NCBI GenBank assembly: GCA_000827205.1
Contig: KN832555.1
Location: 86,307 to 127,413, forward strand
Direction of reading: 5' to 3'
Origin: Plicaturopsis crispa FD-325 SS-3
Taxonomy: Eukaryota > Basidiomycota > Agaricomycetes > Amylocorticiales > Amylocorticiaceae
DNA length: 41,107 nucleotides
The position numbers were made by a program, and so were the translations under genes. Under the pieces are notes generated by a model, which saw only the letters and a list, made by a program, of their open reading frames with translations, was not told the origin of the DNA and did not search any database. Of this stretch, positions 1,633-40,432 are shown one piece after another. The stretch's first letter is position 1. The number at the start of each line of letters is the position of its first letter.

Positions 1633-3216
1633 TTAGTCGCTGGATGTATCATCCTCGTCACTGGAGCTCGAAGCAGACGCATCGTCGGCCCAATAACTGT
1701 CATCGTCCCACACCGAGAAAACGATTCTCCCGTAGCCATGGGCCCTAGTCCATAGTCCGTCAAATGCGTAATTCACCCCGTTGTAAACGTCTTCCATCAG
1801 ATACGCCATGTCCGGGCGATAGAGCCGCTGGTCTCTGTGACAGATATGCACACCAGGAAAAACCCAGTCAAAGTTGCCATTATCGTGCTTGCTGTTGCCC
1901 TGTGGAGCCTCCGACGGCGGAATGATGTACGGGAGATCTGGTAGGTAGTTCAGCGACCCATCGAGCACGCGCACTTTCGTTAAGGACGGCAGGTTGCGCG
2001 CGATGAAGGCGTCGAAAAAAGACCGGTACGTGGGTATTGTGTGCTGTGGGCTCGAAGGGAGCACTACGACGTCGACCCACTTGATGGTGCGATGTGTGAT
2101 GGGCATGCGATAGTTTGGCTCGATTACGAGGTGCTTTAGCGCTGGGCAGACGTCCAGGAGGGGTTGGACGTCCAAGGATTTGTGACTCGAAATCGACAAA
2201 CGGAGATAATCCAAGCGCTGACAATGTGTGCGGCAGAACTGTCCCAGGACATCCCATAGTGACTGCAATAGGCCCGAGGTATGGTGTCCGTCTTCATTAA
2301 CAGTCAGCCGCCTGAGACGCGGCATAGTCCAGTGAGGGACCATTGTCTTGAGGGCGGCATGCTCAAAAGACGTCTGCGTGTACTTCATGCGCAGGGTTTC
2401 GAGAATTTCCAGGTCAGCTTGAAAAAGTTGCGTCCTGTGGGCATCGAGACCGAGGTCCGTCGGGAGAATGAAAGCTAAGAATCGCAGAGTGCGTGAGACG
2501 GCGCGCAACCCCGAAACGAGGTCACGAAAATTGACTGTATCCCCGCATTCTAAGTGCGTAAGACCTGCGGGGCATGTCAGTATGCGCACTGGCCTGGCAA
2601 GCAGGCCCGCCCAGTAGCAAGGGTCCCAAGTGAGGCTCCTAAGATGGGGGCAGCGACCAAGAATTCCGCGAAGATCGCGAATAACGGTACCCCCTGCCGG
2701 AAGAAAGCAAAGAAACCCGACGCTACGAACGGATGATTCCACGTCGAAAGTAGAGGAGTCCAGCGCATAGATGAAGGCGGTAATTTGCTCTGGGCGACGA
2801 AACATGACTTCCTCATAGAGAGTGTCCATCGCGACAGGCCACCAGGCTTTGCATACGAGTACGAGTGCTTTCTTGACGCGTAAAGCCATGCACCACGGTG
2901 AGTGGCGTCCGCCGGCGTGGAGGGTAGGATCGAGGAGGCTTGCAGGAGGAAGTGCGCACAAGAATATCATGCGCAGGATCTCAAGCGGCAGCTGTAGCAC
3001 AGGCCGCCGTAGCCTCGACTAGATATGGTTTTGCATCAAGTCTTGTACGATTTATGTGCATAAATTGTATACGCACCCGGTGCCACTCGCTCTGGTCTTG
3101 CGGAATTCCTTTGTCTTTTGCGGCGCGGTCGCGGTCGTTGTCAATCTATGTGCCGTGTAGTCAGCAGCAGCAAACATAATCGATGGCATACTTACCTGAG
3201 TGGGATTCATATCCAT
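1633..3216 (-). CDS. F-box protein, family 1 member (491 aa predicted)
   Basis: Three exons fit in phase 0: 3216-3196 (MDMNPTQ), 3145-3077 and 3018-1633. Introns are 3195-3146 (GTAAGT...CATAG), 3076-3019 (GTGCGT...CTAG). The product begins with a short charged N-terminus, then R-R-P-V-L-Q-L-P-L-E-I, an F-box-like motif (residues about 32-80) where an adaptor of the Skp1 type would bind in an SCF ubiquitin ligase. A long body without clear repeats follows, with the family motif FPGVHICHRDQRLYR near the end and an acidic-serine tail. Its paralogues are at 5467-7102 and 24504-26095, but its first exons do not match theirs, so the start is less certain than the main exon. It diverges from the F-box pseudogene at 3558. 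Target unknown; the F-box is inferred from sequence pattern only. Confidence 0.75.
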
Positions 3217-5466: not shown

Positions 5467-7102
5467 TTACTCGTCGCCAGACGCGGGACCATCCTCCTCA
5501 CCGGACTCGGTATCGTCCTCGTCATCCGAGCTCGAACCTCCGTCGACCCATGGACTGTCTTCGTCCCATTCTGTGAGCGTCTTATGCTTGATGGGCCTGT
5601 ACGCCCGATCATACAGTCCGTCGAATGCGCCGTCCAGCCCATCGAAACATGCCATGTCCGCGCGGTATAGCCGCTCGTCCCTGTAGCATATATGCACACC
5701 AGGGAATTTCCATTCGAACTTGCATTCATTGTCCTCGTTCTCGTCCAGCGGGGGCTCCAGCGGCCGAATGATGTACGGGAGATCCGGGAGGCTTCGCAAC
5801 GCCTTGTCGAGCACGCGTATATCCTTCACGGATGGAAGGAGCTCTTCGTCATGAAGTGCAGAGTAGATAGTCTCGTATGCCTCCATGTCGTCCGGATCTG
5901 CCAAGGGCACCTCGACATCGACATATTCGAGCGTGGGGTGCGAGATTGGCATGTGGTAATCCATGGTAATAACAAGGTGCTTCAGGAGGGGACAGGCGTC
6001 AAGGACGGGCTGGATGTTATGGGGATCGTACGAGCCGCTCGTCAGCAACGTCACGCGTAGGTATTCTAGGCGGCCGAAAATAAGTCTGCAGAAATCCGAA
6101 AGCTTTGTCCAAAACCACGGCAGCACGTCATCAGAAAAGTGCGCGGTATTGTTCACGGTGAGGCGCTTCAGCCGTGGCGTAGTCCAGCTCGGTGGCAAGA
6201 TGTCCCAACAGTACCAGTCCCCGCTGGGCGCATATGTGACACGAACGTTTTCCAGTTGCTCTAGATCCACATCTTGCTGTATGCCCTGCTCCTCGTCGGG
6301 CTGGTATCCGGCGCTGAGAACGAAAGTCAAAGAGCGCAAGGTGTGGCGAACGCTGTGTAATCCCGAGCAAAGGTTGGCGTAGTCGATGGTCTCTCCGCAT
6401 TCCAAGTGTGTAAGACCCACGGGGCAGATGATCGCGCAGATGGAGATGGGAACTTCTATCTCTGACCGCGCAGACGACGGCGTAGATGGAGATCGGTCTG
6501 CTATGTTATCCAGGTCGAAGGGGTTCCAGGTGAGGCCCTCGATACGCTTGCAGCGGTCCAAGACCTCGGTTACACCGCTGACGACGGAGGCAATCGACTC
6601 TTCCGTAACAACGCACAGAAAGCCTAGTCTACGAACACAGAACCCTAGGTCGAGGACAGAAGAATTTAACGTGTTGATGAAGGCTGGGATTTGGGCCGGG
6701 CGACGGAATACGACCTCCTCGTAGAGTATCTTGGTCGCCACATCCCGCCAGAGTTTGCATACGAGCACGAGCGCCTTCTTCGTCCGTAAAGTCATGCACC
6801 AGGATGAGTTCTGTCCGCCAGCTCGAAGGGAAGGATCGAGGAAGCTTGCGGGAGGAAGGGCGTACGTGAAAACGATCTCCAAGACTTCCACGGGCAGCAG
6901 AAGCACGGGTCGCCGGAGGATCGACTATTTCGCAGTTACAGTCAGCCGGCTGTGGCGTTGTATAGACGGTACGCACCTGTAGCGTATCGGTTTGGCCTTG
7001 CAATAGCTGCCTGTCTTCCTCAGGGGACCGGATTCTTGTCGACAGCTCCTCGCTTGACAGCCTCAGAGCTGCTGGGAGCTCCAGATTAGAGGGAGCAGCC
7101 AT
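5467..7102 (-). CDS. F-box protein, family 1 member (527 aa predicted)
   Basis: Exon 1 is 7102-6977 (42 codons, MAAPSNLELPAALRLS...), the intron is 6976-6925 (52 bp, GTGCGT...ATAG) and exon 2 is 6924-5467. The exon 1 length and position match the plus-strand paralogue at 24504 exactly, which supports this start. The N-terminus is a predicted helix rich in Glu, Arg and Leu. The F-box-like motif follows at the start of exon 2 (S-I-L-R-R-P-V-L-L-L-P-V-E-V, residues 43-90). The shared block FPGVHICYRDERLYR comes late, and the tail is acidic-serine (SSSDDEDDTESGEEDG). The likely role is a substrate-recruiting subunit of an SCF ubiquitin ligase; the target is unknown. Copy C of the 230-bp element lies 491 bp upstream in the same orientation. 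Confidence 0.8.
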
Positions 7103-7555: not shown

Positions 7556-7592
7556 AAAGCCACGTGAAAAAAAGGAACATAAAAAGGGGAAA

Positions 7593-7824
7593 ATGTCTGT
7601 CTCCAAACTAAGAGCGCGTCTGCAAGCGATATCGTAGAAGACGTCAAAAGACGCGCTCAACTCTGCGGTGACGTTCCAAGCCCAACCCCGCGGAAACCTG
7701 CAGGACTTCATAACGAGGTCCCCCAGCACGGAAAAGTCGAGGTGGGTCCTTCTCCCACGAACGTAACAGGCCCCCCGATGTGAGAGATCCATAAAGGGGA
7801 TGAGGGCCTTGACTTGGTTCGTGG
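7593..7824 (-). repeat. Conserved ~230-bp element, copy C
   Basis: Read on the minus strand this begins CCACGAACCAAGTCAAGG and ends GTTTGGAGACAGACAT. It aligns along its whole length with 23720-23952 and 26549-26774. The outer stem CCACGAAC/GTTCGTGG is unchanged and the inner stem GGCCCTC/GGGGGCC keeps pairing through one U-G pair. Here an open frame of 140 codons spans the element (7505-7927), but the other copies do not keep that frame throughout, so I do not call a protein. It lies 491 bp upstream of the F-box start codon at 7102, same orientation. Confidence 0.75.
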
Positions 7825-8575
7825 AATGGCAAATGGACGGAAAGAAACTGGTTGGGGGTGCACTTGCGATCAGGTTCGCAAGATCCATGAAAGATAGATG
7901 CACGGTGAGCCAGTGCAGATAGAACACTGCACGATCGGTGTGCGCCGTATGCTTGCATCAGAGCAATCATGAGGGAGTGCAGCGGCGAAGGTAAATCGAT
8001 AAGAAAACAGAAGGCATGCGAGCATAAGACGAAGAACTCAGCATGGCAAGAAGAGCCCAGTGTAGCCGGAGATGAGCTCTCGTCTGCGCAGTGGCGTAAT
8101 CCTTGCGCGTAGTGCCTGAGTTCCCCGTGCAGGGCAGTGTGATGTGCCGTTTGACAGCGCTCGTTTGCACCGTGATACTCAGAGCAAATGCATCAGGGAC
8201 GATGACGGCCAAATAACGTGAAAGTCGCGCAGGCTCTTGATTCTCTCGGTTTCGCAGGGAGAAATGGGGAGCCGCTTACGGCGAGGATGAGGGTACACGT
8301 ATTTACGCATAAGATGGTAATGGCAGGGAGACAAGAGGTCGAGAAAAAGAGTCGATGCGAAGCCAGCAGGAATATCCGTTTGTGCGTTCCCACGGCCGAA
8401 TTCGGAAGGTGTAGTGGTTCGACACGGCGCGGCACGTCCCGCCGCACTCATACTGTGAAGGACGGCGACTTGTGATACTTAGAACCAGCTACTCGAATGA
8501 TATCGCGAAAGTAACGGAAGCTGTCGCAATAATACACAATCTTGTACAGCTATCAGGCAAGTAAGTACGCGATGA
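7825..8575. other. Intergenic, nothing recognised
   Basis: About 750 bp between copy C and the end of the amidohydrolase gene. The overlapping open frames on both strands look random. I see no exon, RNA gene or repeat. Confidence 0.45.
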
Positions 8576-22485: not shown

Positions 22486-23719
22486 TTATTATTTAGCGCG
22501 CATATTACGGCTACTGAACGGCCTGCTCGCTCACGATTTTGACTTTCTGGCCACAAGTTACGCCCCGCTCGATCTCTCGCCCTCGCATCTCCACGAAAAA
22601 GCTCGAAACAACCAACTGCATCATCCACTTCACGACCCAGACACAACCACGTACTTTAACGCCTCCAGCCTTTTCACGCATCATTAATCGGAACACCCAC
22701 CGCACTCGCACTCGACCTACGTATAATCATCATCGCTCATTCCCGTCGCATCTGCTCGTACTCCATTTCAAAAGGCGCCGTCGCACTTCATTTCAAAAGG
22801 CGCTGCCGCCATAGGCCGCCATCCATTTTCGAGAGGCGCCGCTGCCATCCATTTTTCACATGGCGCCGTCGCCATCCATCCATATTTTCTCAGGACCAAC
22901 CATTTTACAAGCGCAGCGTCACGGTCATTTCGCCGCCTGCACGCCCCCATCTTCGCATGTGTCTCCGCCATTTAGTTCTCCCGCCCTGCCGTGCTTGCAG
23001 TCGATATACTTCTCCGGACCCGCTTCCTCTACGTCTGCGTCCTCCTTACTTCGAGGGCGTCCGTCAATTTTTCGTCACGATCTTCGTCAAGGTTTTCAAC
23101 CACCACCCACCCTCTTTTGGCTGTTTGTCCTTCTACTTGGCTGTTTGTCTTTCTACTGCTATATCATCACCACCACCATCGTCAACAACGCTCTGCATTG
23201 CATTATTTCTTATTCCTCATTTCCACTCCACGGACTAAAGCCTGAATCTGATTTTTTCCTGCATGCATGGCATCCCACTGTAGTCATACTATCTCACTGT
23301 CTTTCTGTAGTAACACCGTGTCCTGTCGCGACGGTCGAATGATATCTTTTTCGTATCGTCTGTTCGTCACCGAAATATTTCTGTCGCTCTTGGTACTAGT
23401 ACTGGCAGTGGCAAGAATGGACGACGACTACCTTCTATATTGGGGACCGTGGGAACCTCGCCTGCGTTGGGTATAAAGACGAAAAATCTTCCGGCATTTC
23501 TTTCCGTTCACTGTACGCGTCAAGCTGATTTCTTTCATGGACTTTTGCATTTGCTGTGCTGGCTGAATGCAAGATTACTCTCAGAGCGCTCTGCATCTTG
23601 TTCCCTCCCAATGATTCAGTCAGACCAAGCTTGCTCACGGCAACACTCTGTAGGCAACACCGCAGTCTTCTTCCCTCTGCGCCTTCGTCTCGCGATATGT
23701 AGTTGTCCTTGTGCTCACT
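22486..23719. other. Intergenic, no gene seen
   Basis: About 1.2 kb after the PUF gene. It holds a GGCGCC-containing repeat cluster (22762-22890) and pyrimidine-rich sequence; open frames such as 22860-23342 look random. No exon or RNA gene is supported. Confidence 0.45.
22762..22890. repeat. Degenerate tandem repeat, CCATTTN...GGCGCCG unit
   Basis: Four units of roughly 26-36 bp share CATCCATTTT or CATTTCAAAA followed by AGGCGCCG or TGGCGCCG and GCCAT. Confidence 0.7.
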
Positions 23720-23952
23720 CCACGAACCAAGTCAAGGCCCCCATCCCCTGCTCCTGCTGGACCTCCCACATCGGGGGCCTGTTACGTTCGTGGAAGATCG
23801 ACCGGCATGCCTTTCTGCGCTGCGGGGCTTCGTTATGAGGTCCTGCAGGTTCCCGTGGAGCCGTGCGCGGAACGTCGCCGCAGAGTTGAGTGTGTTCTTC
23901 GTCGTCCTTAGAGACGGCGCCTGTAGACGCGCTCTTAGTTTGGGGACAGACA
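23720..23952 (+). repeat. Conserved ~230-bp element, copy A
   Basis: Begins CCACGAACC and ends GGGGACAGACAT. The outer stem pairs 23720-23727 with 23786-23793; the inner stem pairs GGCCCCC (23736-23742) with GGGGGCC (23773-23779). A further small hairpin GGGCTTC-GTTAT-GAGGTCC lies just downstream. Similarity to copy B extends at least 50 bp upstream (CGCCTTCGTCTCGC). It lies 551 bp upstream of the F-box start codon at 24504, same orientation. Confidence 0.75.
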
Positions 23953-24503
23953 TTCATCTTCGAGATTCATCCTATCTTGTTCGAACGGATTCATCATAGT
24001 AATCGTCCCTCTTGCTGCAGTTCGTTGCCTCTCATTTATCTGTCGCCTGTCCAGCCTGAACATTGCGTGTCGTTTATCAATGCATAGTGAGTGACCCGAT
24101 CCTGGTGTTCTTTCAGATTGACTTCAATTCATATGCGCGTGCGATGGGTGGCCTGTACGACCCTGACCCTCCGCGTTGAAAGGGTGGCCACGTCTCCAAA
24201 TTCTCAAATGGACGTTTCCTCACTGTGGCGCGAACATGTCGAGGTGGCCACGCTTGGATCAAGGCGTTTATGCTCAAGAGTCTTTGTTTCGTCTGGGGAG
24301 GATGCCCTGCTTTATAATGCCTCACTATCCCTCCCCCTTTCTCATTTCATATAGATCGCCCACTTGCAGACCACGAGAAATAACGAATATCAATTGAGTA
24401 CGTATAATTCTACGGACTTGGAAATTCTGGTGTTGCTTACCGTTGCACGCATTACTTACAGATCATCTAGGATCGCTCACACTGCAATATCCTCATAGAA
24501 AGT
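23953..24503. promoter_or_regulatory. Upstream region of the plus-strand F-box gene
   Basis: Between copy A and the F-box start. No exon is supported; it should hold the core promoter, though no clear TATA box is placed. A repeated GGTGGCCACG core occurs at about 24185 and 24242. Confidence 0.35.
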
Positions 24504-26095
24504 ATGGTTAGTCAACCTATGCTAGATCTCTCGAACGTCCAGAGGCTGTCAACTGGAGAACTGTCGAGGACGATCCGATCTCTAGAAAAGAACCGAGAGC
24601 TGCTGCAAACCCAAATTAATACCCTTCATGTGCGTACAATCTATCTTATACCACAGTCTGGCAGATGCTGACCACTACTGTCGCACAGTCGATTCTCCGG
24701 CGACCCGTGGTTCGCTTGCCTGTGGAAGTCCTGCGGACGATATTCACGTACGCCCTTCCTCCTGCGTGCTTTCTCGACCCTTCCCTACGCGCCGGCGGAC
24801 ACAACTCCTCCTGGTGTATGACTCTCCGGACCAAGAAGGCGCTTGTGCTCGTGTGTAAACTCTGGCGGAATACCGCGACCAATATCCTCTACGAGGAGGT
24901 CATGTTTCGGCGCCCGGAACAAATTGTGGCCTTCCTACGCGCGTTGGATTCCTCTCGTTTGGATTTGCGGACTCGCGTTCGGAGAGTGGGTTTTCTTTGC
25001 GCTGTGCCGGAAGAGTCGGCTACTTCCATTCTCGATGGCTTGTCCGAGGTCCTGGATCGCTGCGACCGTGTCGAGAGCCTTACATGGGATCCGTGCTACC
25101 TGGAGGAGACGCCTGGGGACACAAGACATATAAGCCCAGCGCGGCCACTCATCTGCCCTGCGGATCTCACGCACCTTGAATGCGGTGAGAGCGTCAACTT
25201 CGAGGATCTTTGCGCTGGACTACACCACGTTTGCGACACTTTGCGATCTCTGGCCTTCGTTCTCCCTGTCTTCGCTCGCGGCATCCAAAGGATCAACACA
25301 ATTCCCCTGCTCGTAGACCTGGACCAGCTGGAGAGCCTGCGCGTCACATACGTAGTTGAGCCGTTGCGTACGCATGGCGCTCTCCAATTCATGATATCCT
25401 ACTGGACAATGCCCTGCCTGAAGCGTCTTACTGTGGATACCGGCCCCGGCTTCTCCAAATACGACATGCAACAGTCCTTCTGGGACGTCCTCACGGCGTT
25501 CTGCGGACAGCACTGCGAGCGCGTAGAGTACCTCCGCGTGACCGCCCGCTGGGACGACGAGCGCGACCTCCAGCCCGTCTTGCTCGCCTGCCCCGTGCTC
25601 AAGCACCTCGTCATCAACCTCGGGTACACCGTGCCCCTCGCGCACCCGACGCTCGAGTGGGTGGACGTCGAGGTGCCTGCGGCGCGCCCGCAGGACACGC
25701 ACGCGTGCGCGGCGTACTACAGCGCGCTCAAGGACACGGGGCGCCTCCCGCGCCTGCGGGACGTGCGCCTGCTAGACCAGGCGCTGAGCGCGCTCCCGGA
25801 CCTCCCGTACGTCGTGCGGCCGTGGGAAGGGGAGGAGGACTGCGCGTTCGAGTGGCGGTTCCCTGGGGTGCATGTGTGCTATAGGGACGAAAGGCTGTTC
25901 CGCGCGGACATGGCGTGTTTCGATGGGCTGGACGGCGCGTTTGCGGGGCTGTATGACCGGGCGCATAAGGTTGTGAAGCGGAAGACGTTTACGCAGTGGG
26001 ATGATGATAGTCCTTGGGTCGATAATGGTTCAAGCTCGGACGACACAGAAGGCAGCGACGACGAATGCTTAAGTGCTGACGATGAGGAATGCTAG
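24504..26095 (+). CDS. F-box protein, family 1 member (510 aa)
   Basis: Exon 1 24504-24629 (42 codons), intron 24630-24688 (GTGCGT...CGCACAG), exon 2 24689-26095. The first exon (MVSQPMLDLSNVQRLSTGEL...) aligns with that of the gene at 5467-7102 and both splice to S-I-L-R-R-P-V, which fixes the start. The F-box-like motif covers residues about 47-95 (LPVEVLRTIFTYALPPACFL, then LVLVCKLWR). A long substrate-side body follows, with the late motif FPGVHVCYRDERLFRADMAC and an acidic-serine tail. The second half is markedly GC-rich in third positions (from about 25550), more than the start. It is probably an SCF adaptor of unknown target. Copies A and B of the 230-bp element flank the gene. Confidence 0.83.
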
Positions 26096-26548
26096 GTGGG
26101 TATTTCTTATGCTCTGTATACCGTACCTTGTGTACCTTGTGTACCACCTGTACAACTTTTGTATACTGCGCGATGTCATGTTGCTCAAGCCACTGTCAAA
26201 TATATGCCGATGCAGAGATGTACAGTCGACCTGAGGGACTCGGATTCGGTGCAGAAATGTGAGGAGACCGTGGTCGACCATCGTGCACGTGGGAACTTTG
26301 CTGTCCATAAAGATGGAAATCAAATATTTTTCCCGCTTTTCTTCGTCCACCATCTCGAGCTCTCTTTGCAATGGACTGGTTATACCGTGCTCACTGAATC
26401 AAATCTAGTCTCCTGCAGTGCCATGTATCATGTCCATGAACGCCGTCAGTTGCTTGCGACGAGGACTCTACAAATGACAGCGCATTTTCTGCCGCCTTCG
26501 TCTCGCAATACTCACTAGTCGTCGTCTTGCATTCGGCATGCGCCCCCT
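26096..26548. other. Intergenic after the plus-strand F-box gene
   Basis: No gene seen. Contains a short GTAC-rich imperfect repeat (GTACCTTGTGTACCTTGTGT at 26121-26140). The part before copy B resembles the sequence before copy A (GCCTTCGTCTCGC). Confidence 0.45.
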
Positions 26549-26774
26549 CCACGAACCAAGTCAAGGCCCCCATCTCCTTGTTGGACCTCCCACATCGGGG
26601 GCCTGTTACGTTCGTGGAAGATTGACCGGCATAACTTTCCGCGCTGCGGGGCCTCGTTATGAGGTCCTGCAGGTTCCCGTGGAGTCGTGCTCGGACCGTC
26701 GCCGCAGAGTTGAGCGTGTCCTTCGTCGTCTTCAGAGACGGCGCCTGTAGACGCGTTCTTAGTTTGGGGACACA
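26549..26774 (+). repeat. Conserved ~230-bp element, copy B
   Basis: Aligns with copies A and C from CCACGAACC to GGGGACACAT; it lacks about six bases in the loop of the first stem. Both nested stems are perfect and the small hairpin reads GGGCCTC-GTTAT-GAGGTCC. It ends 611 bp before the start codon at 27385 of the next plus-strand gene, so it holds the same relative place as copies A and C although that gene is not an F-box gene. Confidence 0.75.
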
Positions 26775-27384
26775 TATACTCGAGTATTTTGCTTGCTTGC
26801 GCCTATGGCTATCAGGGACCCAATCATTGATCATATCGTATGTTTGCCACTCCTGTTCTGTGTATCCGGTTCACCTTCGAAATGCAATCATTCTAGTTCC
26901 AGGATCGTTTCACAGCGCATCTCGTCGTCGTTTGCTTTCTATTTCACGCTGCAAAGGATTTTCTGGACGCGAGAGAGCAACCAAACAAGTGCAAATCTGC
27001 CCAGCTTCAAGTTGGTTTCTCGTCGCGTCTGTCCTCGACGCTCTACTTTCTGTGTCGTCCAGTGTTTCCTCTGTCTCCTGTCGTTTTCACGCTGTTTTCA
27101 CTCGCAATCGCGCTATCCCTTCCAGCTGGCGGACCATGTTTCGCAACACGCTACGTATCCTGAACCTCATCGTAAATCCCCATCCAGTGAGCGCAGACGC
27201 GACTTTATTCTGCCATTCGTGTTGTTCGCGGTGCTCACGCTGTCTGGGCAGTCCTTTGATATCCCGCCATCGTTTTCAGAGCCTTTCTATTATTTCAATC
27301 TCTACAGCTCTGGTAAGTCGCGTAATAAACAGTCTCAGCGACTTAAAACCAACATACGCGCGCCGGCCGACAGGGAGCGCGAAC
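26775..27384. promoter_or_regulatory. Upstream region of the gene at 27385
   Basis: A frame in phase with 27385 stays open back to 26659, so a longer N-terminus or upstream exon is conceivable, but its sequence has no recognisable feature. The rest looks non-coding. Confidence 0.3.
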
Positions 27385-29148: not shown

Positions 29149-29585
29149 GAAGGAGGAGGAAGGTGTGCGTCGTTGTTGTTTGTTATGTTGTCGACGTGTT
29201 GTCGCTCTCTCGTTTGTGACTGCTGTTTCATGGGTGGACTATACTCTCGCTCTCTCGTTCGTTATAGGATTCCTGTAAATTTACCTATACCCTGTTTGGA
29301 GATATACCCTTTCGAGAGCCAGACAACTTGGATGACCATCGCTTGAACATCGAGCACAGGCAAGCGCAACTAAGTTGCAGGAACGAGAACTTGCAATAAT
29401 GATAATGAGATTCGTCAATTTGGTGGAAGACATTACTAGCCCTAGAATATATGTACCCCTCGTGAATTCGTAGACCCTTCTTCATTGCTTCTTCAAGTTG
29501 TTAGAATGCATGCACAAGCACTCGCAAGTGATTGATATGCTCACCAAAGTCTCGAAAAGTCGTGGCTACTACCCCACCGCCGTCG
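29149..29585. other. Intergenic between two convergent genes
   Basis: No exon seen. It must hold the 3' ends of the plus-strand gene before it and of kinase-like copy 1. Confidence 0.45.
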
Positions 29586-30918
29586 CTACTGCCCTACGAG
29601 GCGCATGATACTGTTGATCCCACCCCTCGCTACCGCCACTGTGTCGCGCACGACCCGCTCTGGCACGGTCTCGTTCACAGGGCGAAGCCGCCACCGCGCA
29701 CTCGCGGGATCCAGTTGCTCGTGTATATGGCGAAACTGCATAAACGCCTTCGCAGCGGGCGGGCGGCGGCTGGGCTCCTGATCCGTCATGGCCGATATGA
29801 GCGGCAAGAGAAAATCGAGCCCGGAGAATTTCTGCGATGCCGACCATGTCAGCGCATCGGCGACTCAGTCTGTACAGCGGGGGCTTACTTGGTGGAGCTC
29901 TCTGCGGTACACGCAGCCGAGGATGAATATATCGACCTTGTAGGCGTCGTACGGGGCGTCGACCGCCAGCTCGGGGACGGTTTTTTCTCTGCCGATCTCT
30001 CCGCGCGTGGAGATGAATGGCGAGTCCCCGGCGCGAAATCGAACCGCGAGCCCAAAGTCGATGAAGTAATATCGAACGGGGTGGTCGATTCGCGACAAGG
30101 GTGTCGCCTCGGAGATTGCATCGGGCGCGTACTCCAGTCGCAGGGGATGCCATCCTTGCGGGTATATTGACGTAGCATCCATCATTATGTTCAGAGCGGC
30201 GCAGTCTCTGTGTGTTGTTACTCAAACGGAAAGATACAGTATGAGATACAACTTACCGGTGAGCTACTTTTTGCTCGTGCATAAACGCTAGACCCTAGCA
30301 TATATGAGCATGCAATGTTACGATTTTGCTGGCGGTTCGACGTACCTGCAAGGTTTGTCCGATGAAATCGAGGATCTCACCTACGAACATGAAATTCGGG
30401 CTGTCGAATGGCCGTAGGAGAGGCATAACAACATATTGCCTGTTTGGCGTTACTGGGTCCAAGAACGCATCGAGAACCGGCACGCAATGGTTGAAGGGAT
30501 TCCAACGGAGCTCCGAGGAAGAAAGAAACTGTGCGATCTCGACCTCGCGCGTAGCGCCGTCGACGCGTTTAATGGCAACCACCAGTCCATCATCACGAGT
30601 GGCGTCAATGATGTTGTATTCCTGAAGTTGAAGCATGAGAAATGTACGATAATTGGGGACGAAGCACCTACTAACATCGGGAGAAAGAGAGTCTTCACAC
30701 CAAAACGGGTCGATATTAGTACCCAGCCACGAAGGTTTCCAACCGTCTTCGTACCGAGGCCGAAGACGATATCCGCGCTGTCGAAGAGTCGGGTGTAGGT
30801 CCTTCCACACCTTTTCTGCTGCCCTCAATTCGAAGCGGCCACTCTTGGTGTCCTTTGCATAGCGTTCCGCCTGCTCCGGTGAAACTCTCGTCCACAAAGG
30901 CGATTTGATTTCATTCAT
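29586..30918 (-). CDS. Kinase-like protein, copy 1 (373 aa, HRD kept)
   Basis: Exons 30918-30676, 30621-30346, 30294-30257, 30207-29889, 29831-29586; introns 49-57 bp. The product is a small kinase-fold protein of an agaricomycete-expanded family. It has VVAIK (Lys99), an E-V-E-I helix C glutamate, hinge VVMPLLRPF, catalytic loop HRDCAALN (185-192), an insertion of about 40 residues with IYPQGWHPL, then DFG (236-238), a PE-like TVPEL, KVDIFILGCVY for the helix F aspartate, and EPSRRP near the end. All residues needed for catalysis are present except a classical glycine loop; exon 1 instead has GTNIDPFWCED. It could phosphorylate proteins, but activity is not proven for the family as far as I know. 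The intron after the first exon has no stop, so retention would add 18 residues in frame. Confidence 0.85.
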
Positions 30919-31597
30919 CTAGTAGCCCACGCCAATATGGGCCCTATCGTAAAATACCGCGTGAGACAGGCAGTTTCTTTCCAATGTGTAGAGTGAATGA
31001 GAGGGCGTTGATGGTATAACGAGAGCTAACAAGAGAGCCGTCCAATATTATTTCGGTCGAGATAATCGCACATTGAAACTCCGCGAAAGTGCGCTTCTTC
31101 GTTGGCTGCTCGCACTCGAGAGCAACTGGAGTCCTTCAGCGCGCTCTCTGTTCACTTCCAGTACTCACTCTTTGAAAGGCTTCAACTTGTCATGGATAGC
31201 GCTGGCGCTCAGCGATGTTGCCCACGCGTACATCAACGATTTGCAGTCTAGACTCATTTGTACTGGTCACCCCGTCATCCCCAAGATACACGCTCAACCC
31301 ACGTTTCGTGCACTAAACGCGTGTTCTCCTGTGTTATAAAGAAGTGACATGCACAGGATGGGAGTGAGATCGTCCTATACCTGCGCCCGGGTCATCCCTA
31401 CGTTTTTCTCTTCTCCAGGATATTGAGCTTCATAGAAAGGCTTGCCTCGTCTTTGTGAGCCAAGCTATCACTGCGATCTCCATAAACTAACGAGAGAACA
31501 CATCCAGGTAGAATTTCGGACAGCTTAATCGTCGTCAGTGAGTGATCATGATGGCTCACAAGCAGCCTGTGAATGTTCACAGCAATATGCTTAGGAG
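30919..31597. promoter_or_regulatory. Shared upstream region, kinase copy 1 and membrane protein gene
   Basis: 679 bp between two divergent start codons. A plus-strand frame at 31073-31339 has no recognisable feature. Promoters for both genes are expected here; I cannot place motifs. Confidence 0.35.
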
Positions 31598-32737
31598 ATG
31601 GGACTGGGACCAGACATCTTTGGATACATTGCAGGGGCCGTGGGTATCATTGGCGCTCTCTACGCAGCACTCTACAGTCAATTACCCAAAAACAAAATCG
31701 CCGAGCTTGTCGAAGTCTTTGAGGAGACCGAAACCTTGTTTTATCGCTCCGCAGAGGAGGGTCTTTTGACCAGCCAAGACTACGTATATAACTTGGAAAA
31801 GGCGCTGTTCGAGTAAGTCATTCGTGGCGATTGCCCTGCTCGACGCTGACGCACATACTAGCTGGCGTCTTAGGGTAGAATATCTTCGAGCCACTGCGCT
31901 ATGCTCGACCTCATTTGCCGAACAATGCGTACTCGTCATCCAAGGGTTGACGAGATCGATTACAGCAGCTTATGCCAAGATCACCCAAATTCGTGCGAGT
32001 GTATTGGTGAGTACCCTTTGAGACCCTCTATTTGCGAAGGGCTGACACTCTTTCGCAAGACAAAGAGTCAATACGAGAGAGAAAGACTCTTGAGCGTAGG
32101 GCAATTACAGCATTCCCAAGCGCGTTATGGACGCACGCCCCCCACCGTATCAGAGCGGGTACATTGCGGGGTCACATATGATCGTAATTATCTGCCATTC
32201 GCTTGCCTATGTTGTGTGCTCATACCTCCACAGCGAGTAATCATCCACCTTCTGATCCCGAAACTAAGTGGGCACCTCGGCCTCGACTCGTCGTGGAACT
32301 GGATCGCAGAGACCTCAAGCTTCAGGCTCGAATTCGTCGGGGTCTACGTCGTTCGCACTCTTGTCCAGCACCGGACTCGGAGGATCTTTTCATCGCCGAA
32401 TCGGTGCCCGAGAAATGTACGTCTCAGCAGTCATACAAAGCTTTCTCCTTCCATCATTGTATTCACGCGAGTCACAGCAACGTTCCTGAAACGGAACACC
32501 CACACTCGCGCAGACTCCGGTGCATCCTCCGTGGAGACACTCGTCTCCGAAGAATCCCTCTCCGCGCCCTCCATAGCAGAAGAGAATCCCTATCGTTGCT
32601 CCTCACCCCTCCCGTTCCCCGACTGCACGCCGGAGCTGCTCAAGGATACCTTGCTCGGAGGTCAATCGCTGCCTGTCTATGGGCCGCAAATGCGTTCTTC
32701 GTACATGCCCCGCGTCGTCCCCCATCCTGCCCTTTAG
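31598..32737 (+). CDS. Small membrane-anchored protein of unknown function (308 aa)
   Basis: Exons 31598-31812, 31862-32006, 32060-32183, 32234-32416 and 32478-32737 close in one frame; introns 49-61 bp, two with GCTGAC branch sites. The N-terminus has one hydrophobic helix (FGYIAGAVGIIGALYAALYS, residues 8-27), so it probably inserts in a membrane with a short outer end. A helical region follows (LRVEYLRATALCSTSFAEQ, then ITQIRASVLTKSQYERERL), which agrees with a Basidiomycota-only family I recall with a TM helix and a predicted coiled region. The C-terminus is proline- and acid-rich. The donor at 32184 (GTAATT) was chosen because it alone keeps the frame and gives a 50-bp intron; the third exon end is the weakest part. 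An acceptor at 31873 is an alternative for exon 2. It is inserted, on the opposite strand, in the kinase-like array. Confidence 0.62.
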
Positions 32738-33220
32738 AGGCAGTCACTACAGCCTTACCTTTGCTCTGAACACATTACATTTTGGATTTCTTGTCAAGGA
32801 CGAAGTCCTTGTCCATCGTCTGCCGTAACTTATCTGGTCTCTCCACTGAACGCTGTCGAAACTTGTATCTATAGGGCAGCGTGGAGAGTCCGTCTGCTGT
32901 ATATATCTACGATATGAAACTTGGGCAGCGACGTTTAAAATTGTGTAGTGGGAACCACGCGAGGCTCAGGACGAGAATTTCGCAATCAGCCGGCGTACCT
33001 CAGCAAGCGCTAGCAAGCCCTAGATCAAAGCGTCCGACGTTTAACGGTGACGCCAAAACATCCTTCACTCAAGAGGCAGAGTGGGTACATAAGTCGACCT
33101 AGTGAGCATCGGGACAGATAGATTGAACACAGACGCGGGAAAACGTTCAGACTAAGCATTGCAAAGCGCATCCACTAAGCATCGCACACTCACGAAGTCG
33201 ATACGTTACACATCTCTCTG
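32738..33220. other. Intergenic between convergent genes
   Basis: No gene seen. The plus-strand frame at 32881-33102 looks random. It should contain the 3' UTRs of the membrane protein gene and of kinase-like copy 2. Confidence 0.45.
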
Positions 33221-34559
33221 TTACTGCTGCCCCACGAAGCGCATGATGCTGTTCACCGCCGCCATCGTGTCGCGCACGACGCGCTCCGGCATGGTCTCGT
33301 CCACCGGGTGCAGCCGCCACCGCGCATTGGCGGAGTCCAGCTGCTCGTATAGGCGGCGGAACTGCACGACCGCATCTGAGGCGGACGGCCGTCGGCTGGG
33401 CTCTTGATCTGTCATGGCGGAGATAAGGGGTGCGAGGAAGTCGAGCCCCGAGAATTTCTGGGGACGGCGGCCTCGTGAGCTTCGGAGAAACCAGTTATAC
33501 AGGTAGGGGTCTTACTTGGTACAGATCTTTGCGGTAGACGCAGCCGAGTATGTATATGTCGACCTTGTAGGCGTCGTATGGAGCGGCGAGCGCAAGTTCG
33601 GGGACAGTTTTTTCCTGGGGTATACGTCCGCGGGTGGATATGAAGGATGACTCGCCCGCACGGAATCGCACAGAAAGCCCAAAGTCGATGAAATAATACC
33701 GGACTGGACGATCTGTTCGCGATGGCGGCGTCAGAAGCTGGGTGAACGCATCAGGCGCATATTCGCGCCTCAGCGGATGCCAGCCCTGGGGGAATAGAGG
33801 GGTGGCATCCATCATTATGTTGAAAGCGGCACAATCGCTAGTACACCAGTGAACGTTAGCGAAGCCGCGCAGTTTCGTATAATCTCTACGCACAGATGAG
33901 CTACGAGGTGGTCGTGCATAAACGATAATCCCTAACAAAGCGTGAGTGTACGGACAGCAAAGATGGTTAGTGGACATACCTGTAATGTTTGACCGACAAA
34001 GTCAAGTACTTCACCAAAGAACATGAATTCTGGGTCATTGAATGGCCGAAGATTAGGCATGACTATATATGTCCTATCTGGTGTAACTGGATCGGAGAAG
34101 ACGTCTAGGATGGGGACGCAGTGATTATAGGGATCCCCACGGAGTGCGGGAGATGATAGAAATTTTGCAATTTCGACCTCATGAGGTGCACGGTCAACGC
34201 GCTTAATCGCAACCACCAGCCGATCGCTTTCGCGCGTCGCATCGATGATGTTATACGCCTGTAGAGAGCCGGTAAGAAACTAGATAAGTTCAGATCCTGT
34301 GCATACTGACACGGGGTGTAATGGAATCTTCACACCAGAGTGGGTTGACGTCCGTCCCCAGCCAGGACGGTGTCCAATCTACCTCGTAGCGAGGGCGGAG
34401 GCGGAAGCCGCGTCGTCGAAGGGTAGGATGTAGATCTCGCCAGACTTTCTCGGTGTCCCTCAACTCATAACGGCCCTTCCTAGTGTCTTCTGTGTACCGT
34501 GCTGCCTTCTCTGAAGAGACTCGCGTCCAGGAAGGCCGTCGTGCGGTCTCTCCATTCAT
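33221..34559 (-). CDS. Kinase-like protein, copy 2 (374 aa, HLD variant)
   Basis: Exons 34559-34311, 34258-33980, 33931-33894, 33837-33516 and 33457-33221, with the same phases as copy 1. The VVAIK lysine (Lys102), DFG and the IYILGCVYR helix F segment are kept. The catalytic loop, which is assembled across the third intron (CAT CT | C GAT), reads His188-Leu-Asp190-C-A-A-F-Asn: the HRD arginine is Leu. That loss is compatible with catalysis in principle (non-RD kinases exist) but changes control by the activation segment. Exon 2 is one codon longer than in the other copies (ESDRL). Its 5' flank (34560-34805) resembles that of copy 5. Confidence 0.84.
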
Positions 34560-35333
34560 CTAGAGTCTTCCCGCGACACCGCAAGCGGCCGTGCTGGATC
34601 CTGATAACAATTGAGTAGGAAAATTCTGGGTAGCAGACGGAATTTGCGAGGACACGACAGTGTATTAGACGAAGACCGTTGCACTAGTAATGACTTTTAG
34701 GGCGCTGCGAGTACAAGGCAGCCAGTCCTGGGCAGCGTTGTAGGTGAAAGTTGGTCCATAGATTTGAATCCGTCCACGTAGATCGCTGAAGAAACCGCGT
34801 CTTGTTCAAAATCGCCGTGTCTCGCTTGCTTCCTGCCGATGAAGAAGACACGACGGACAAGGTAGTTTCACAAGGCGATCTTGTATTTCGCGCGACGTGG
34901 CTCTCTGCAGACCGCACGGCTGGCGTTGTTCTCCCGTCGTCCTCAACGTTGTCCCCATATCCACAGGCAAGCGGAGTTGCTTCGGTCTTCGAGGTAAAAA
35001 ATTGGGCTGTGCAGTCGATTAATATCTGGTCCGAGGAGTATTATACAGAATTTCGTTCAGAAACAGGGCTATCCCTCCAATTTGCAAGTCAGATCTAGCG
35101 AGTCGATTCGATACAATTCCTGGCACGATAAAGTCCGTGAGAAAAGCATCAGCATAATCCATGGTTGACGGTGGGCGAGAGTTGCTCACCACAATCAAGA
35201 CATCCAATAATAATGATTAGTTAAGGTAGAAAGCTGCAACGCAGAATACGTTCTCGGACTGCCGGCTCATGTCAAGACGTGCACCAAGAGCGTTATACAA
35301 TGGACTTGCCAAGAAAGAGCGTCGCACAGTTTA
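34560..35333. other. Duplicated intergenic block, copy 1
   Basis: From about 34840 to 35333 it is near-identical to 38590-39080, and in both places it lies directly behind the last exon of a kinase-like gene (copies 3 and 5). Partial frames exist on both strands (plus 34802-35098, minus 35019-35207), each broken by a different stop or 1-nt shift in the other copy. Substitutions between the copies show no codon-position bias in the part I compared (34861-35000), so I do not call a gene. Bases 34560-34805 match the 5' flank of copy 5 (AAAATTCTGGG, GGACGGAATTTGCGAGG-like stretches). Confidence 0.65.
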
Positions 35334-36686
35334 TCACTGCTGCCCGACGAAGCGGATGATGCTGTTGATCCCGCCCTTCGCCGCCGCCACAGTGTCGCGC
35401 ACGACGCGTACAGGTAAGATCTCGTCAATAGGGTGGAGCGGCCATTGCAAACTTGCGGGGCCCAGCTGCGCCTGTATGCGGCGAAAGTGTTCCAGCGCCT
35501 CCGCGGCGGTTGGGCGGCGGCTGGGCTCCTGGTCCGCCATGGCGGAGATGAGCGGCAGTAGGGAGTCAAGACCTGTGAATTTCTAGCGGTTGTGTCAGAT
35601 TGGTAGATTTTGGTGATACAGATAGAGGAATGCTTACCTCGTATAGCTCCTTTCGATATACGCAGCCGAGGATGTAGATGTCCGTCTTGTAGGCGTCATA
35701 CGGGGCGTCGACTAGTAGCTCGGGGACAGTTTTCTCCTGTGGCATCCCCCCGCGAGTGCGTATGATGTGGGACTCGCCCTCGGAGAAACGGATGGAGAGT
35801 CCGTAATCAATGAAGTAATATCGGACATGGTGGTCAATCCGCGATAGCGGTGCTGGGAGTTTAGTAAACCCATCTCGCGCATAACTGCGCCTCAGCGGAT
35901 GCCATCCTTGTGGGTAGATATCAGTGGCATCCATCATGATATTGAATGTGGCGCAGTCGCTGAGGGTGTAGATTTGACTCAGAGAGGTCATTTGAATCAA
36001 GACAGTTCGACTCACAGATGCGCCACGCGATGCTCGTGCATGAAACATAAGCCCTGTGAGAACGCTAGTCAAAGTAGTTCGTAGCAGCCACTCAAAGTGT
36101 GTACGAGCCTACCTCCAACGTCTGACGAACGAAGTCGACAGCTTCACCAACAGAGGTGAACTCTGGGTCGTTGAATTGCCGCAGAAGTGGCATGACGAGA
36201 TACGACCTGCCTGGTTTAACCGGATCAGGAAACGTGTCCAAGATGGGCACACAGTGGTTGTAAAGATTAGACCGCAGTGCTGGCGAAGAGAGAAATTTCG
36301 CTATCTCAGCTTCATCTGACGCGCGATCGAGACGTTTAATCGTGACGTGTAAGCCGTCGTCTCGGGTAGCATCTATCACGTTGGAGACCTATACGACCGC
36401 GGTCAGAAACACAGTATACACGTGTACCATTGCAGTTACTGACGTAGGGTTTAATGTAATCTTCGCACCAAAATGGATCGATATTGGTACCTAGCCACGA
36501 AGGCTTCCACCCTACGTCGTAACGAGGACGGAGACGGTACCCACGCTGTCGAAGGGTAGGCTGGAGATCTCGCCAGATCTTTTCTACGGGCATTAAATCG
36601 AATTGCCCCTTCAGAGTTTGCTCTAGATATTGCTGTTCCCATTCTGGAGAAAGTCGTGTCCACCAAGGCCTTCGGACGGTGTTCAT
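35334..36686 (-). CDS. Kinase-like protein, copy 3 (375 aa, HLD variant)
   Basis: Exons 36686-36444, 36388-36113, 36053-36016, 35959-35638 and 35582-35334. The start is the ATG of M-N-T-V-R-R-P-W-W; the frame stays open further upstream to 36896 but that extension has no family support. VAIK is VTIK (Lys99), the loop is His185-Leu-Asp187-C-A-T-F-Asn, DYG replaces DFG (YYFIDYGLSIRF), and the helix F segment KTDIYILGCVYRKELYE is kept. It is closest to copy 5 in exons 2-5 and in the 3' flank. With HLD and DYG together it is the most altered intact copy, so it may be a weak kinase or a pseudokinase. Confidence 0.83.
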
Positions 36687-37173
36687 CTTGTAGTCTCCGT
36701 GCTCGAATGGTGCAGGACAACAACTGCGTAGGACTATTATAATACGAGATCGAAATGGGAGGTAGGCAATATTGGAGGGGGTGCAGCAGTTATTTTCAAG
36801 GGGCACGCTGCTCGTTGAAATTTGGCCGCCGCCTTTATGTCGTTCTAGGTGCAACAAGGCGTCAGCGGTGGGCAGAATACAAGGTAAATATAACATCTTA
36901 GCCGATGTTGTACTTGAATGACACGCTACAAGTCATCTCTTGTAATGCCATTTGTTGTCATGGCGAGTGAGAAGTAGCCTTAGGTAGCACAAAGAACTTG
37001 AACATCGACTTAGCACAAGCCGCAGCAAACAGGACCTGACAACGGCTCACCAAGAAGAAGACGTCCAATAACGATAACTAGAGACAGTACACTAGAGCAT
37101 GGTGCGTGCCTGCAAGTGTCAAAACGTGCGCACAGAACATCCAAGAACCAGAGACACATACTTCTCCGTTTCA
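36687..37173. other. Intergenic between kinase-like copies 3 and 4
   Basis: No gene seen. The first ~45 bp resemble the 5' flank of copy 5 (GGACAACAA..TGCGTAG). Near 37048-37080 it keeps the GCTCACCA...GTCCAATAACGAT motif that also follows copies 3 and 5, so this is a diverged member of the same duplicated 3' flank. Confidence 0.5.
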
Positions 37174-38392
37174 CTACTGCCCGACAAAGCTCATGATGCT
37201 GCTGATCCCGCCCTTCGCCGCCGCCACCGTGTCTCGCATCACCCTCACGGGGAGGGTCTCGTCAACCGGGTGCAGCGGCCACCGCGCGCTCCTGGGGTCT
37301 AGCTGTGCCTGTATACGGCGGAAATGCGCGAGCGCCTCCGCAGCGGTAGGACGTTGACAGGGTTTATGGTCCGTCATGGCGGAGAGGAGCGGCAGCAGGA
37401 AATCGAGGCCCGTGAATTTCTGCATAGTCGCCGCGTCAGCGTATTGGAGCATGAATCGAGAGCCCGAAGTCGATGAAGAAATAACGAACGGAACGATCGA
37501 TTCGTGACGACGCTGGCGACACTTCGGATATGGCATCCGGTGCGCAGTTGAGCCTCCAAGGATGCCATCCCTGGGGATAGAGTGCAGTAGCATCCATCAT
37601 GATATTCAACGCGCCACAGTCACTACGCACTTTCAGAATGAGTAACACCAAATGAGGGGAGGGCTGGGACACACCGGTGAGCCACATGATGCTCGTGCAT
37701 AAACCATAGTCCCTAAATCATAAATGAGGGTCGTGATACAAGAGTTGACAGTTGAGACCTACTTGCAGGGTCTGGTTCACGAAATCGACAACTTCACCAT
37801 GAAGTTGGAATGCAGGCTCGTCGAATGGTCGAAGGATTGGCATGACGAGGTACATCCTTGTCTTTATGATAGGATCCGGAAAGAAATCTAGGAGGGGTAC
37901 GCAGTGATTGAGGGGATTCGAGCTGAGACCCGGAGAGGAGAAGAGACGGGCAATTTCAACTTCCTGAAGATTATGGTCGACGCGTTTGATCGCGACTACT
38001 TTGCCATCGTCGCGAGTGGCATCCATGATGTTGTACACCTGGCTCGAGGAGTCCGAGAAGGTGAGAAAAGGAATAGACGCGCGAAGACTACAGTCACTCA
38101 CTTCGGGTCCAATGGAGTCTTCGCACCAGTGCGGATCGATGTCCGTACCCAGCCACGAAGGTCTCCAGTCCTCTTCATAGCGAGGGCGTAGACGGTAACC
38201 ACGTCGTCTAAGGGTGGGATGTAGATCTCGCCATTTCAATTCGACGTCCTTAAGATCGAAGCGCCCATTCTTGGTATCCTGCAGATATTTCTCCGCCCAT
38301 TCGGCAGAGACTCTCGTCCACCGAGGCCAGCGCCGACTTGAGACGGCGTCTACGATCATCGGATGGTTCTGGGTGCTCGAGTCAGTCATCAT
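37174..38392 (-). pseudogene. Kinase-like copy 4, internally deleted (HRD kept)
   Basis: Exons 38392-38102, 38038-37763 and 37712-37675 are normal, and exon 4 starts normally at 37622 with the loop His201-Arg-Asp203-C-G-A-L-Asn. After DFGLSI the sequence jumps to CATGCTCCAATACGCTGAC, which matches the 3' end of the next intron in copy 5, and then to the normal last exon 37419-37174. About 170-180 bp are therefore missing: the activation segment, the PE motif, helix F and the intron donor. Translation would stop at the TGA 37436-37438, giving about 263 residues without the C-lobe core. The last exon itself is still open. The first intron is 63 bp and stop-free. Confidence 0.8.
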
Positions 38393-39080
38393 TCACGCTT
38401 CTATGAGAGGAGAAAAACCAGACGAAGTGACTGCGCAATGCGCATCCCGAGCAGCAGATCCAAGATATAGGGCACGATGAACAAGGCAGTGCATTTTGAA
38501 CAAAGCGTTCTTGTAATTGGTGGTCGATTTCTTCCCAGCGCAGTCGTCTGAGCAGAGAACTTCACAATGTATCATCAGCGTCAAGAACGATGGAAAAAAC
38601 ACGCCGGAAAGGCAGTCTCACAAGGAGTTCTTGTATTCTACGCGACGTCGTTCTCTGCAGACCGCACGGCTGGCATTGTTTTCCTGTGGTCCTCCGCGTT
38701 GTCCCCATATCCACAGGCGAGCGGCGTTGCTTTGGTCTTCAAGGTAAAAAGTGGGCTTTGCAGTCGAGTAATATCTGGTCCGAGTAGTACTATACAAAAT
38801 TTCGTTCAGAAACAGGACTATTCCTCCAATTGGCAAGTCAGGTCTAGCGAGTCAATTCAATGCAATTCCTAGCACGATGACGTCCGCGAAAAACGTATCA
38901 GCGTAATTCATGGTTGACGGTGGGCAAGAGTTGCTCACCATGATCAAGACATCCAATAATAATGATTAGTTAAGGTAGAAAGCTACAACCCAGGAAACGT
39001 TCTCGGCTGCCGGCGTATGTCAAGACGTGCAACAAAAGCGTAATACAATGGACTCACCAAAAAGGGCGTCACGCAGTTTA
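38393..39080. other. Duplicated intergenic block, copy 2
   Basis: From about 38590 onward this matches 34840-35333. Against the first copy it lacks one base in an A-run (near 38745) and has an in-frame stop in each of the two partial frames. It also carries the conserved CATCCAATAATAATGATTAG motif seen behind copy 3. Confidence 0.6.
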
Positions 39081-40432
39081 TCACTGCTGCCCGACGAAGC
39101 GGATGATGCTGTTGATCCCGCCCTTCGCCGCCGCCACAGTGTCGCGCACGACGCGTACAGGTAAGATCTCGTCGATAGGGTGGAGCGGCCATTGCAAACT
39201 TGCGGGGCCCAGCTGCGCCTGTATGCGGCGAAAGTGTTCCAGCGCCTCCGCGGCGGTCGGGCGGCGGCTAGGCTCCTGGTCCGCCATGGGGGGGGAGATG
39301 AGCGGCAGTAGGAAATCAAGACCCGTAAATTTCTGCATAGTTGCAGTGTCAGGCCAATGGAATCGAGGATACACGAGAAAGGCTTACTTCGTATAGCTCT
39401 TTGCGATATACGCAGCCGAGGATGTAGATGTCCGTCTTGTAAGCGTCATACGGAGCGTCGACCAGCAGCTCAGGGACAGTTTTTTCCTGCGGCATCCCCC
39501 CGCTAGTGCGTATAATGTGGGATTCACCCTCAGAAAAACGGATGGATAGTCCAAAGTCAATAAAGTAATATCGAATAAGATTGTCCGTCCGCGACGGCGG
39601 CGCTGAAAGTTGGGTGAATGCATCCGGCTCGCAGTCGCGCCTCAGCGGATGCCATCCCTGCGGATAAAGCCTCGTAGCGTCCATCATGATGTTGTACGTG
39701 GCACAGTCCCTGAGAGAGTTCATTAGCTACCCGTTTTTCGATCGAGAAACTCATCTTACAGATGCGCTACGCGATGCTCGTGCATGAACCATAAGCCCTG
39801 GGACATCGTGAGTAATTTATACGGGTTATACAAGGTGAGCGAATACACACTTCCAACGTCTGGCCCATGAAATCAACGGCCTCACCGACAGAGGTAAACT
39901 CCGGCTCATTGAAGTGTCGAAGGCTAGGCATGACGAGATACGACCTTTCTGGCTTGACTGGATCGGGGAACGCGTCCAGGATGGGGACACAATGATTCGA
40001 GGGATCGCATCGCAGTGCAGGCGATGATAGAAACTTCGCTATTTTGATTTCGTCGGGCGTGTGATCAAGACGTTTAATCGCGACGCGTAAGCCGTCGTCA
40101 CGAACGGCATCGATAACATTGAAAACCTATGCTAAAGGGTCAGAAACACAGGAAGCGCGTGTGATTACTGCACAGATACTGACACGGGGTGTGATGGAGT
40201 CTTCGCACCAGAACGGTTCGATATTAGTGCCCAGCCACGAAGGTCTCCAATCCGCGTCGTAACGCGGACGGAGGCGGTAGCCGCGGCGTCGAAGAGTAGG
40301 CCCCAAATCTCGCCATATCTCTTCTATGGGCATCAAGTCATAGCGACCGTTCTTGGTTTCCTCTGAAATCTGCTGTGCCGTTTCCTGAGAGACTCGTGTA
40401 TACCAAGGCCATCGAACGGTGTCTTTATCCAT
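39081..40432 (-). CDS. Kinase-like protein, copy 5 (378 aa, HLD variant)
   Basis: Exons 40432-40184, 40126-39851, 39797-39760, 39709-39388 and 39332-39081; introns 50-57 bp. Lysine 101 in RVAIK, loop His187-Leu-Asp189-C-A-T-Y-Asn, DFG and KTDIYILGCVYRKELYE are all present. Exon 2 lacks a usable internal start, so it is easily missed. A run of seven G (CCC CCC on the coding strand) adds a proline codon before M-A-D-Q-E-P relative to copy 3; it keeps the frame, but a homopolymer error there should be considered. The exon 1 ending SITPR and the 5' flank match copy 2, while exons 2-5 and the 3' flank match copy 3, so the gene looks mosaic. Confidence 0.83.

Follow-up and report, generated by a model that had tools for sequence, protein, structure and literature searches.

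Why should a stretch of some 230 bases be preserved upstream of three different genes, on the same side and in the same orientation in each case? The question is raised by a window of 41,107 nucleotides, the whole stretch of DNA analysed here, from the basidiomycete Plicaturopsis crispa FD-325 SS-3 (assembly GCA_000827205.1, contig KN832555.1, positions 86,307 to 127,413 of the forward strand). The first-pass annotation of this window had described three copies of the element, hereafter referred to as c1, c2 and c3, and had considered a promoter or leader module, an RNA gene and a mobile repeat as its possible nature. The RNA gene is the best supported of these options, by an Rfam clan and by guide sequences, and the other two are disfavoured. 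Judged by sequence, the element is very probably an H/ACA guide small nucleolar RNA (snoRNA) belonging to the U19/snR191 type, with three gene copies lying within 19 kb. Homology to known snoRNAs, together with guides complementary to ribosomal RNA (rRNA), would explain its conservation.

Three copies of a putative guide RNA

The copies were located at 7591..7826 on the minus strand (c1) and at 23718..23955 and 26547..26778 on the plus strand (c2 and c3, respectively). They align end to end on the strands originally claimed, with best ends a few bases wider than those first given. In the three-copy alignment, 179 of the 242 columns are invariant; c2 and c3 form the closest pair (214/232 aligned bases, 92.2%), followed by c1 and c3 (188/232, 81.0%) and c1 and c2 (186/233, 79.8%), and the corresponding blastn E-values (2.3e-88, 1.2e-54 and 2.5e-45) are far beyond chance. 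The copies are 80-92% alike while the DNA flanking them barely aligns.

Further members were sought throughout the genome, which comprises 33.2 Mb in 49 contigs. With c2 and c1 as queries, DNA searches returned the sites of c1, c2 and c3 and nothing else, and two patterns describing the guide pockets matched 5 and 8 places, with c1-c3 the only places matched by both. No fourth, diverged copy was recovered from the genome by the c1 query, the snR191 model of Rfam (RF01263) or the two pocket patterns. A model designated R1 likewise revealed no fourth copy in the window, in the NOG2 locus discussed below, or in ten loci comprising the seven extra pocket-pattern places and L013, L014 and L017 (default filters, E <= 1). 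With the filters off, R1 scored c1-c3 at 242-279 bits in the window, and all its other matches of at least 5.4 bits overlap c1-c3 on the opposite strand. The viral contigs searched gave no match.

A scan of the window against Rfam identified no family at its gathering score. In a smaller search with a relaxed threshold, c2 matched snR191 (RF01263) along the entire model (positions 1-273 of 273, 34.2 bits, E 3e-6); two more matches were listed up to E 10, with E-values of 2 and 5.5. When the three loci were searched jointly (9,688 bases, 4227 families, E <= 1), just three matches were listed, and these are c1, c2 and c3. The best-scoring copy, c3, matched RF01263 over positions 1-273 of 273 with 38.4 bits (E 4.9e-6), c2 did so over the same span with 34.2 bits (E 6.3e-5), and c1 matched SNORA74 (U19; RF00090) over positions 1-201 of 201 with 34.2 bits (E 7.7e-6). 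All three copies are therefore full-length matches to a single clan, CL00043 (U19/snR191).

Each copy carries two guide pairs of 5+5 bases that are complementary to helix 69 of the large-subunit (LSU) rRNA, as judged against the LSU sequence of other organisms rather than that of this fungus, and all 20 guide bases are identical across c1-c3. The first pair, AGTCA/GTTAC, faces GUAAC-[UA]-UGACU of helix 69, and the second, AGAGT/TAGTT, faces AACUA-[UG]-ACUCU. The four guide pieces, in this order, lie at 7810-7814, 7763-7767, 7660-7664 and 7606-7610 in c1 (minus strand), at 23730-23734, 23781-23785, 23882-23886 and 23936-23940 in c2 (plus strand), and at 26559-26563, 26605-26609, 26706-26710 and 26760-26764 in c3 (plus strand). 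The helix 69 segment used as the target was found at 15 loci of genome contigs, some of them archaeal; both of the loci given to Rfam (2/15) were identified as eukaryotic LSU rRNA. As a side observation, two contigs filed under bacterial genomes (L035 and L040) show matches over their length to eukaryotic LSU rRNA and are likely contamination of those public assemblies.

The two predicted target uridines are two bases apart and are spaced like Psi2258 and Psi2260 of yeast (Psi, pseudouridine), which are described as the targets of yeast snR191 (PMC8476143); they correspond to the two modified positions where helix 69 is written AmC-Psi-A-Psi-GAC (PMC7277114).

The remaining signatures are arranged around the pockets. 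A hinge motif follows the first pocket at a distance of 14 bases in all three copies (AGAAGG at 7748-7753 in c1, AGATCG at 23795-23800 in c2 and AGATTG at 26619-26624 in c3), and an ACA triplet is present near the predicted 3' end of each (7594-7596; 23950-23952; 26772-26774, or alternatively 26770-26772), at 14 bases from the second pocket in c1 and c2. Within the window, a pattern combining the four guide pieces with the ACA finds c1 and c2, and it has no match in 100 shuffled windows. In the predicted folds, which were calculated for the free RNA without proteins or target, the first hairpin of each copy consists of an outer stem CCACGAAC/GTTCGTGG, an internal loop containing AGTCA...GTTAC and then an inner stem, and the last hairpin carries AGAGT...TAGTT flanking an inner stem. 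The first outer stem has 8 of its 9 pairs identical in all three copies, and the first pocket is open in each of the three folds. Of the alignment cells, 96.4% pair, compared with 36-50% in slid controls, the structure itself having been derived from c1-c3. A shuffle test of fold energy, which covers c1 and c2 (c3 was folded without shuffles), gave a z value of -3.1 for c2.

Several observations weigh against this identification. All the scores are below the Rfam gathering cut-offs (38.4 and 34.2 against 46 for RF01263, and 34.2 against 71 for RF00090), so that c1-c3 are not curated Rfam members and are described here by homology and guides. A whole-genome search with RF01263 found c3 alone (28 of 517 candidates scored), and is weak by itself since it also gave below-cut-off matches in 7 of the 14 prokaryote controls. 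The helix 69 patterns and the 5.8S family found nothing in the assembly that would represent the fungus's own LSU rRNA. The second pocket of c3 is separated from the ACA by 12 (or 10) bases instead of 14, and c3 misses the strict pattern of guides and ACA because its tail is shorter. The hinge is AGANNG in all three copies, which has two of the three fixed letters of ANANNA; the strict ANANNA occurs in none (H boxes are scored by a weight matrix in one snoRNA finder, PMC5249026). In the folds of c3 and of the consensus, four of the five AGAGT bases and three of the five TAGTT bases are paired, and the folds of c1 and c2 place three TAGTT bases in a small tail hairpin. The fold of c1 is modestly better than its shuffles (z -1.5). 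Covariation among the three sequences is not significant, its score being reached by 67 of 500 shuffles.

In the mechanism proposed for the element, its RNA would fold into a middle hairpin flanked by two guide hairpins. H/ACA snoRNAs associate with the H/ACA proteins, namely Cbf5/dyskerin and its partners, and this RNA would be expected to do likewise; its two guide pairs would hold helix 69, and the first bracketed base of each target would be converted to pseudouridine, at the positions equivalent to yeast Psi2258 and Psi2260. The RNA is presumed to be made and working. If so, a puzzling conserved element would be accounted for as a guide RNA of a known kind, one missed here by the Rfam cut-offs.

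Candidate promoters and the relation to NOG2

The 9-mer CGTGGGAAC occurs three times in the window when both strands are considered, once 5' of each copy and on the same strand as that copy, where 0.22 occurrences are expected; three occurrences were reached by none of 100 shuffles. It lies 568 bases 5' of c1 (8386..8394, minus strand), where it is a candidate promoter element with no TATAAAG beside it. The candidate promoter of c2 (23448..23478, plus strand) consists of CGTGGGAAC at 270 bases 5' of the copy, followed 15 bases on by TATAAAG, and that of c3 (26288..26312, plus strand) of CGTGGGAAC at 259 bases 5' of the copy, followed 10 bases on by ATAAAG. The same 9-mer, which had been fixed before NOG2 was inspected, is present with a TATA box 5' of the NOG2 gene of this genome (L010 4499-4507, minus strand). 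A TATA-like box thus follows CGTGGGAAC at three of the four sites (c2, c3 and NOG2), neither TATAAAG nor ATAAAG being present at c1. Transcription of the copies as free-standing genes from CGTGGGAAC promoters, with a TATA-like box at c2 and c3, may be envisaged.

The specificity of these motifs was examined with control words and in the whole genome. In 20 sampled stretches of 10 kb, CGTGGGAAC occurs once, compared with 0-3 occurrences for each of six permuted control words and one for the reversed word; Rfam at gathering gave no match in 14 of these 20 stretches. The pattern CGTGGGAACN{8,22}ATAAAG is found four times in the genome, at c2, at c3, upstream of NOG2 and at one locus before another reading frame, with none for the reversed control; the TATA extension was set after c2 and NOG2 had been inspected, and we estimate that roughly one match would arise by chance. 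The narrower CCGTGGGAACNNYGC is found at c2, NOG2 and one other locus, with one match for the control. No RNA was identified by Rfam, up to E 2, at the two pattern loci other than c2 and c3 (L013, and L014 at NOG2). The 9-mer resembles a CSL/RBP-J site (GTGGGAA), a resemblance for which no supporting paper was found in the open-licence literature.

The uneven outfit of the copies bears on whether all of them are functional. One or more may be pseudogenes arising from duplication, leaving fewer than three that produce a working RNA, a prospect that we consider somewhat improbable yet of real weight. It is favoured by the interval from second guide to ACA in c3 (26760-26774), which is two bases shorter than in c1 and c2, and by c1, whose CGTGGGAAC has no TATA-like box beside it and whose fold is poorer than that of c2 in the shuffle test of these two copies. 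Decay is opposed by the retention of 20/20 guide bases and of 8/9 first-outer-stem pairs in all three copies while their flanks have diverged, and by the best Rfam score belonging to c3 itself.

In Saccharomyces cerevisiae, snR191 is described as residing inside an intron of NOG2, and 72% of the fungi examined are stated to keep the position of this intron, a figure that refers to the intron and not to its snoRNA content (PMC8476143). In Candida albicans and L. elongisporus snR191 is also reported from the NOG2 intron, whereas C. parapsilosis and C. orthopsilosis are described as having NOG2 introns too short for it and a monocistronic snR191 (PMC5033589). NOG2 of the present genome was located via its N-terminal domain. 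Those of its introns that are legible by eye are short, and the 5-kb NOG2 locus contains no snR191 detectable by R1 (best match 2.4 bits) or Rfam, so that the predicted snR191 of this genome lies outside NOG2, as in C. parapsilosis. About 470 bases between the NOG2 TATA box and the ATG (L010 about 4012-4480, minus strand) would provide room for a small RNA, and neither Rfam nor R1 identified one there.

Comparison with the known systems shows both likenesses and differences. With snR191 (RF01263) of S. cerevisiae and other fungi, the element shares the full-length match of c2 and c3 and the same two LSU uridines predicted as targets; it differs in scoring below the gathering score, in having three copies, in not being in NOG2 and in its AGANNG hinge. 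With animal SNORA74/U19 (RF00090) it shares the full-length match of c1 at 34.2 bits and the common clan CL00043, but c1 is below the gathering score of 71 and there is no convincing indication that an intron hosts it. The monocistronic snR191 of C. parapsilosis and C. orthopsilosis is similarly free-standing and outside NOG2; the passage describing it (PMC5033589) makes no mention of multiplication, whereas three copies beside F-box-like genes are observed here. The present locus would therefore constitute one more case, besides the reported Candida species, of snR191 outside NOG2, and what is added to those cases is the multiplication of snR191 and the CGTGGGAAC common to the copies and NOG2.

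Through this shared 9-mer, the relocated snoRNA is linked in a testable way to the gene that usually hosts it. The motif may reflect either descent from a NOG2 duplicate together with its promoter or a promoter type common to ribosome-biogenesis genes, the two being indistinguishable here. A fuller history can be sketched, which we regard as doubtful: snR191 would have left NOG2 by a duplication that took the promoter along, the coding part of the host would have decayed, and the snoRNA would have become free-standing under a NOG2-like promoter (CGTGGGAAC with TATAAAG), co-regulated with its former host, before being triplicated next to a growing family of F-box-like genes; the changed ACA spacing of c3 would possibly reflect a specialisation of that copy.

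An intronic origin of a different kind has also to be considered, in which the copies would be processed from introns in the 5' leaders of the downstream genes, their position and orientation then being functional. All three copies do lie 5' of a gene and are co-oriented with it, the snR191 of S. cerevisiae is housed in a NOG2 intron (PMC8476143), and one reference, by its title, describes human U19 as encoded by an intron, its transcript having little coding potential. However, the 300 bases upstream of each of the three copies contain no GTRNGT 5' splice site, an absence that is moderately informative given the approximately 0.6 occurrences per 300 bases that we estimate by chance. A relaxed GTRNG is present between CGTGGGAAC and the copy in c2 alone, the 9-mer of c1 being outside the scanned 300 bases, and candidate promoter motifs stand upstream of the copies. 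An intron origin is therefore not favoured and is considered unlikely.

Neighbouring genes and the origin of the copies

The first-pass annotation had taken two of the downstream genes to be F-box paralogues, and their paralogy is borne out, with the F-box-like match remaining below the Pfam cut-off. Gene B, 3' of c1 (5467..7102, minus strand; Pfam F-box-like E 0.0059, frame 5467-6924), and gene C, 3' of c2 (24504..26095, plus strand; E 0.00083, frame 24620-26095), are sisters with 56.8% protein identity. A further paralogue, A (1633..3018, minus strand), recognised by its identity to B and C (45.3% and 48.1%, respectively), has no detectable snoRNA copy and matches an F-box-protein LRR (leucine-rich repeat) model below cut-off (E 0.0008). 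The 54-residue frame 3' of c3 has no Pfam match. The leaders 3' of c1 and c2 have a 16-base stretch in common and the coding starts also align; since, in addition, B and C are sisters, it is most likely that a snoRNA copy and an F-box-like gene were duplicated together, giving the pairs c1-B and c2-C. Copies c2 and c3 are arranged in tandem around gene C, and their upstream flanks share a 23-base stretch (91%, E 4e-4) in addition to CGTGGGAAC. The element would accordingly have spread through local duplication of DNA, one event including an F-box-like gene.

The duplications bear directly on the regularity from which the question arose. Measured by subtraction from the ends originally given to the candidate start ATGs originally chosen, at 7102 (minus strand), 24504 (plus strand) and 27385 (plus strand), the distances are 491, 552 and 611 bases, within one base of the 491, 551 and 611 first reported. 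The earlier suggestion that the kept side, orientation and spacing are meaningful for the downstream gene is unsupported, as three copies were found genome-wide and two of them were co-duplicated with the gene; the regularity can be attributed to few events, two of the copies preceding co-duplicated sister F-box-like genes. The genome-wide search that had been proposed as a check on the spacing yielded three sites and no dispersed copies. Duplication of the copies together with the neighbouring gene, which had been named as grounds for abandoning the suggestion, applies to two of the three (c1 and c2), c3 being the tandem and closest relative of c2. Copies that are few and co-duplicated, it may be cautioned, should not be read as a sign of a regulatory module.

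A promoter or leader module regulating the downstream gene is thus very improbable: the kept side, orientation and distances (491, 552 and 611) that suggested it come from just three copies, two of which were duplicated with the gene, and the conservation is explained by the full-length snoRNA match and the rRNA-complementary guides. Equally improbable is a mobile repeat such as a retrotransposed snoRNA or an element resembling a short interspersed nuclear element, which would account for there being more than one copy and has a precedent in the snoRNA retrotransposition described in mammals (PMC8178906), but the three places found are all within 19 kb and not dispersed, the copies share an upstream CGTGGGAAC that a copy of the mature RNA would lack, and the first-pass annotation reported no poly-A tail.

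Other reading frames were observed in the window. Between A and B, the plus strand, opposite to both genes, holds a 425-residue open frame (3929-5206) that is weakly LRR-like, below cut-off. An amidohydrolase reading frame (8576-9373, minus strand; PF01979, E 2.2e-10) lies upstream of c1. A unit the size of a gene, two frames of which are without a Pfam match, recurs in the region 29563-40538 in as many as five copies, spaced approximately 1.6-3.8 kb apart.

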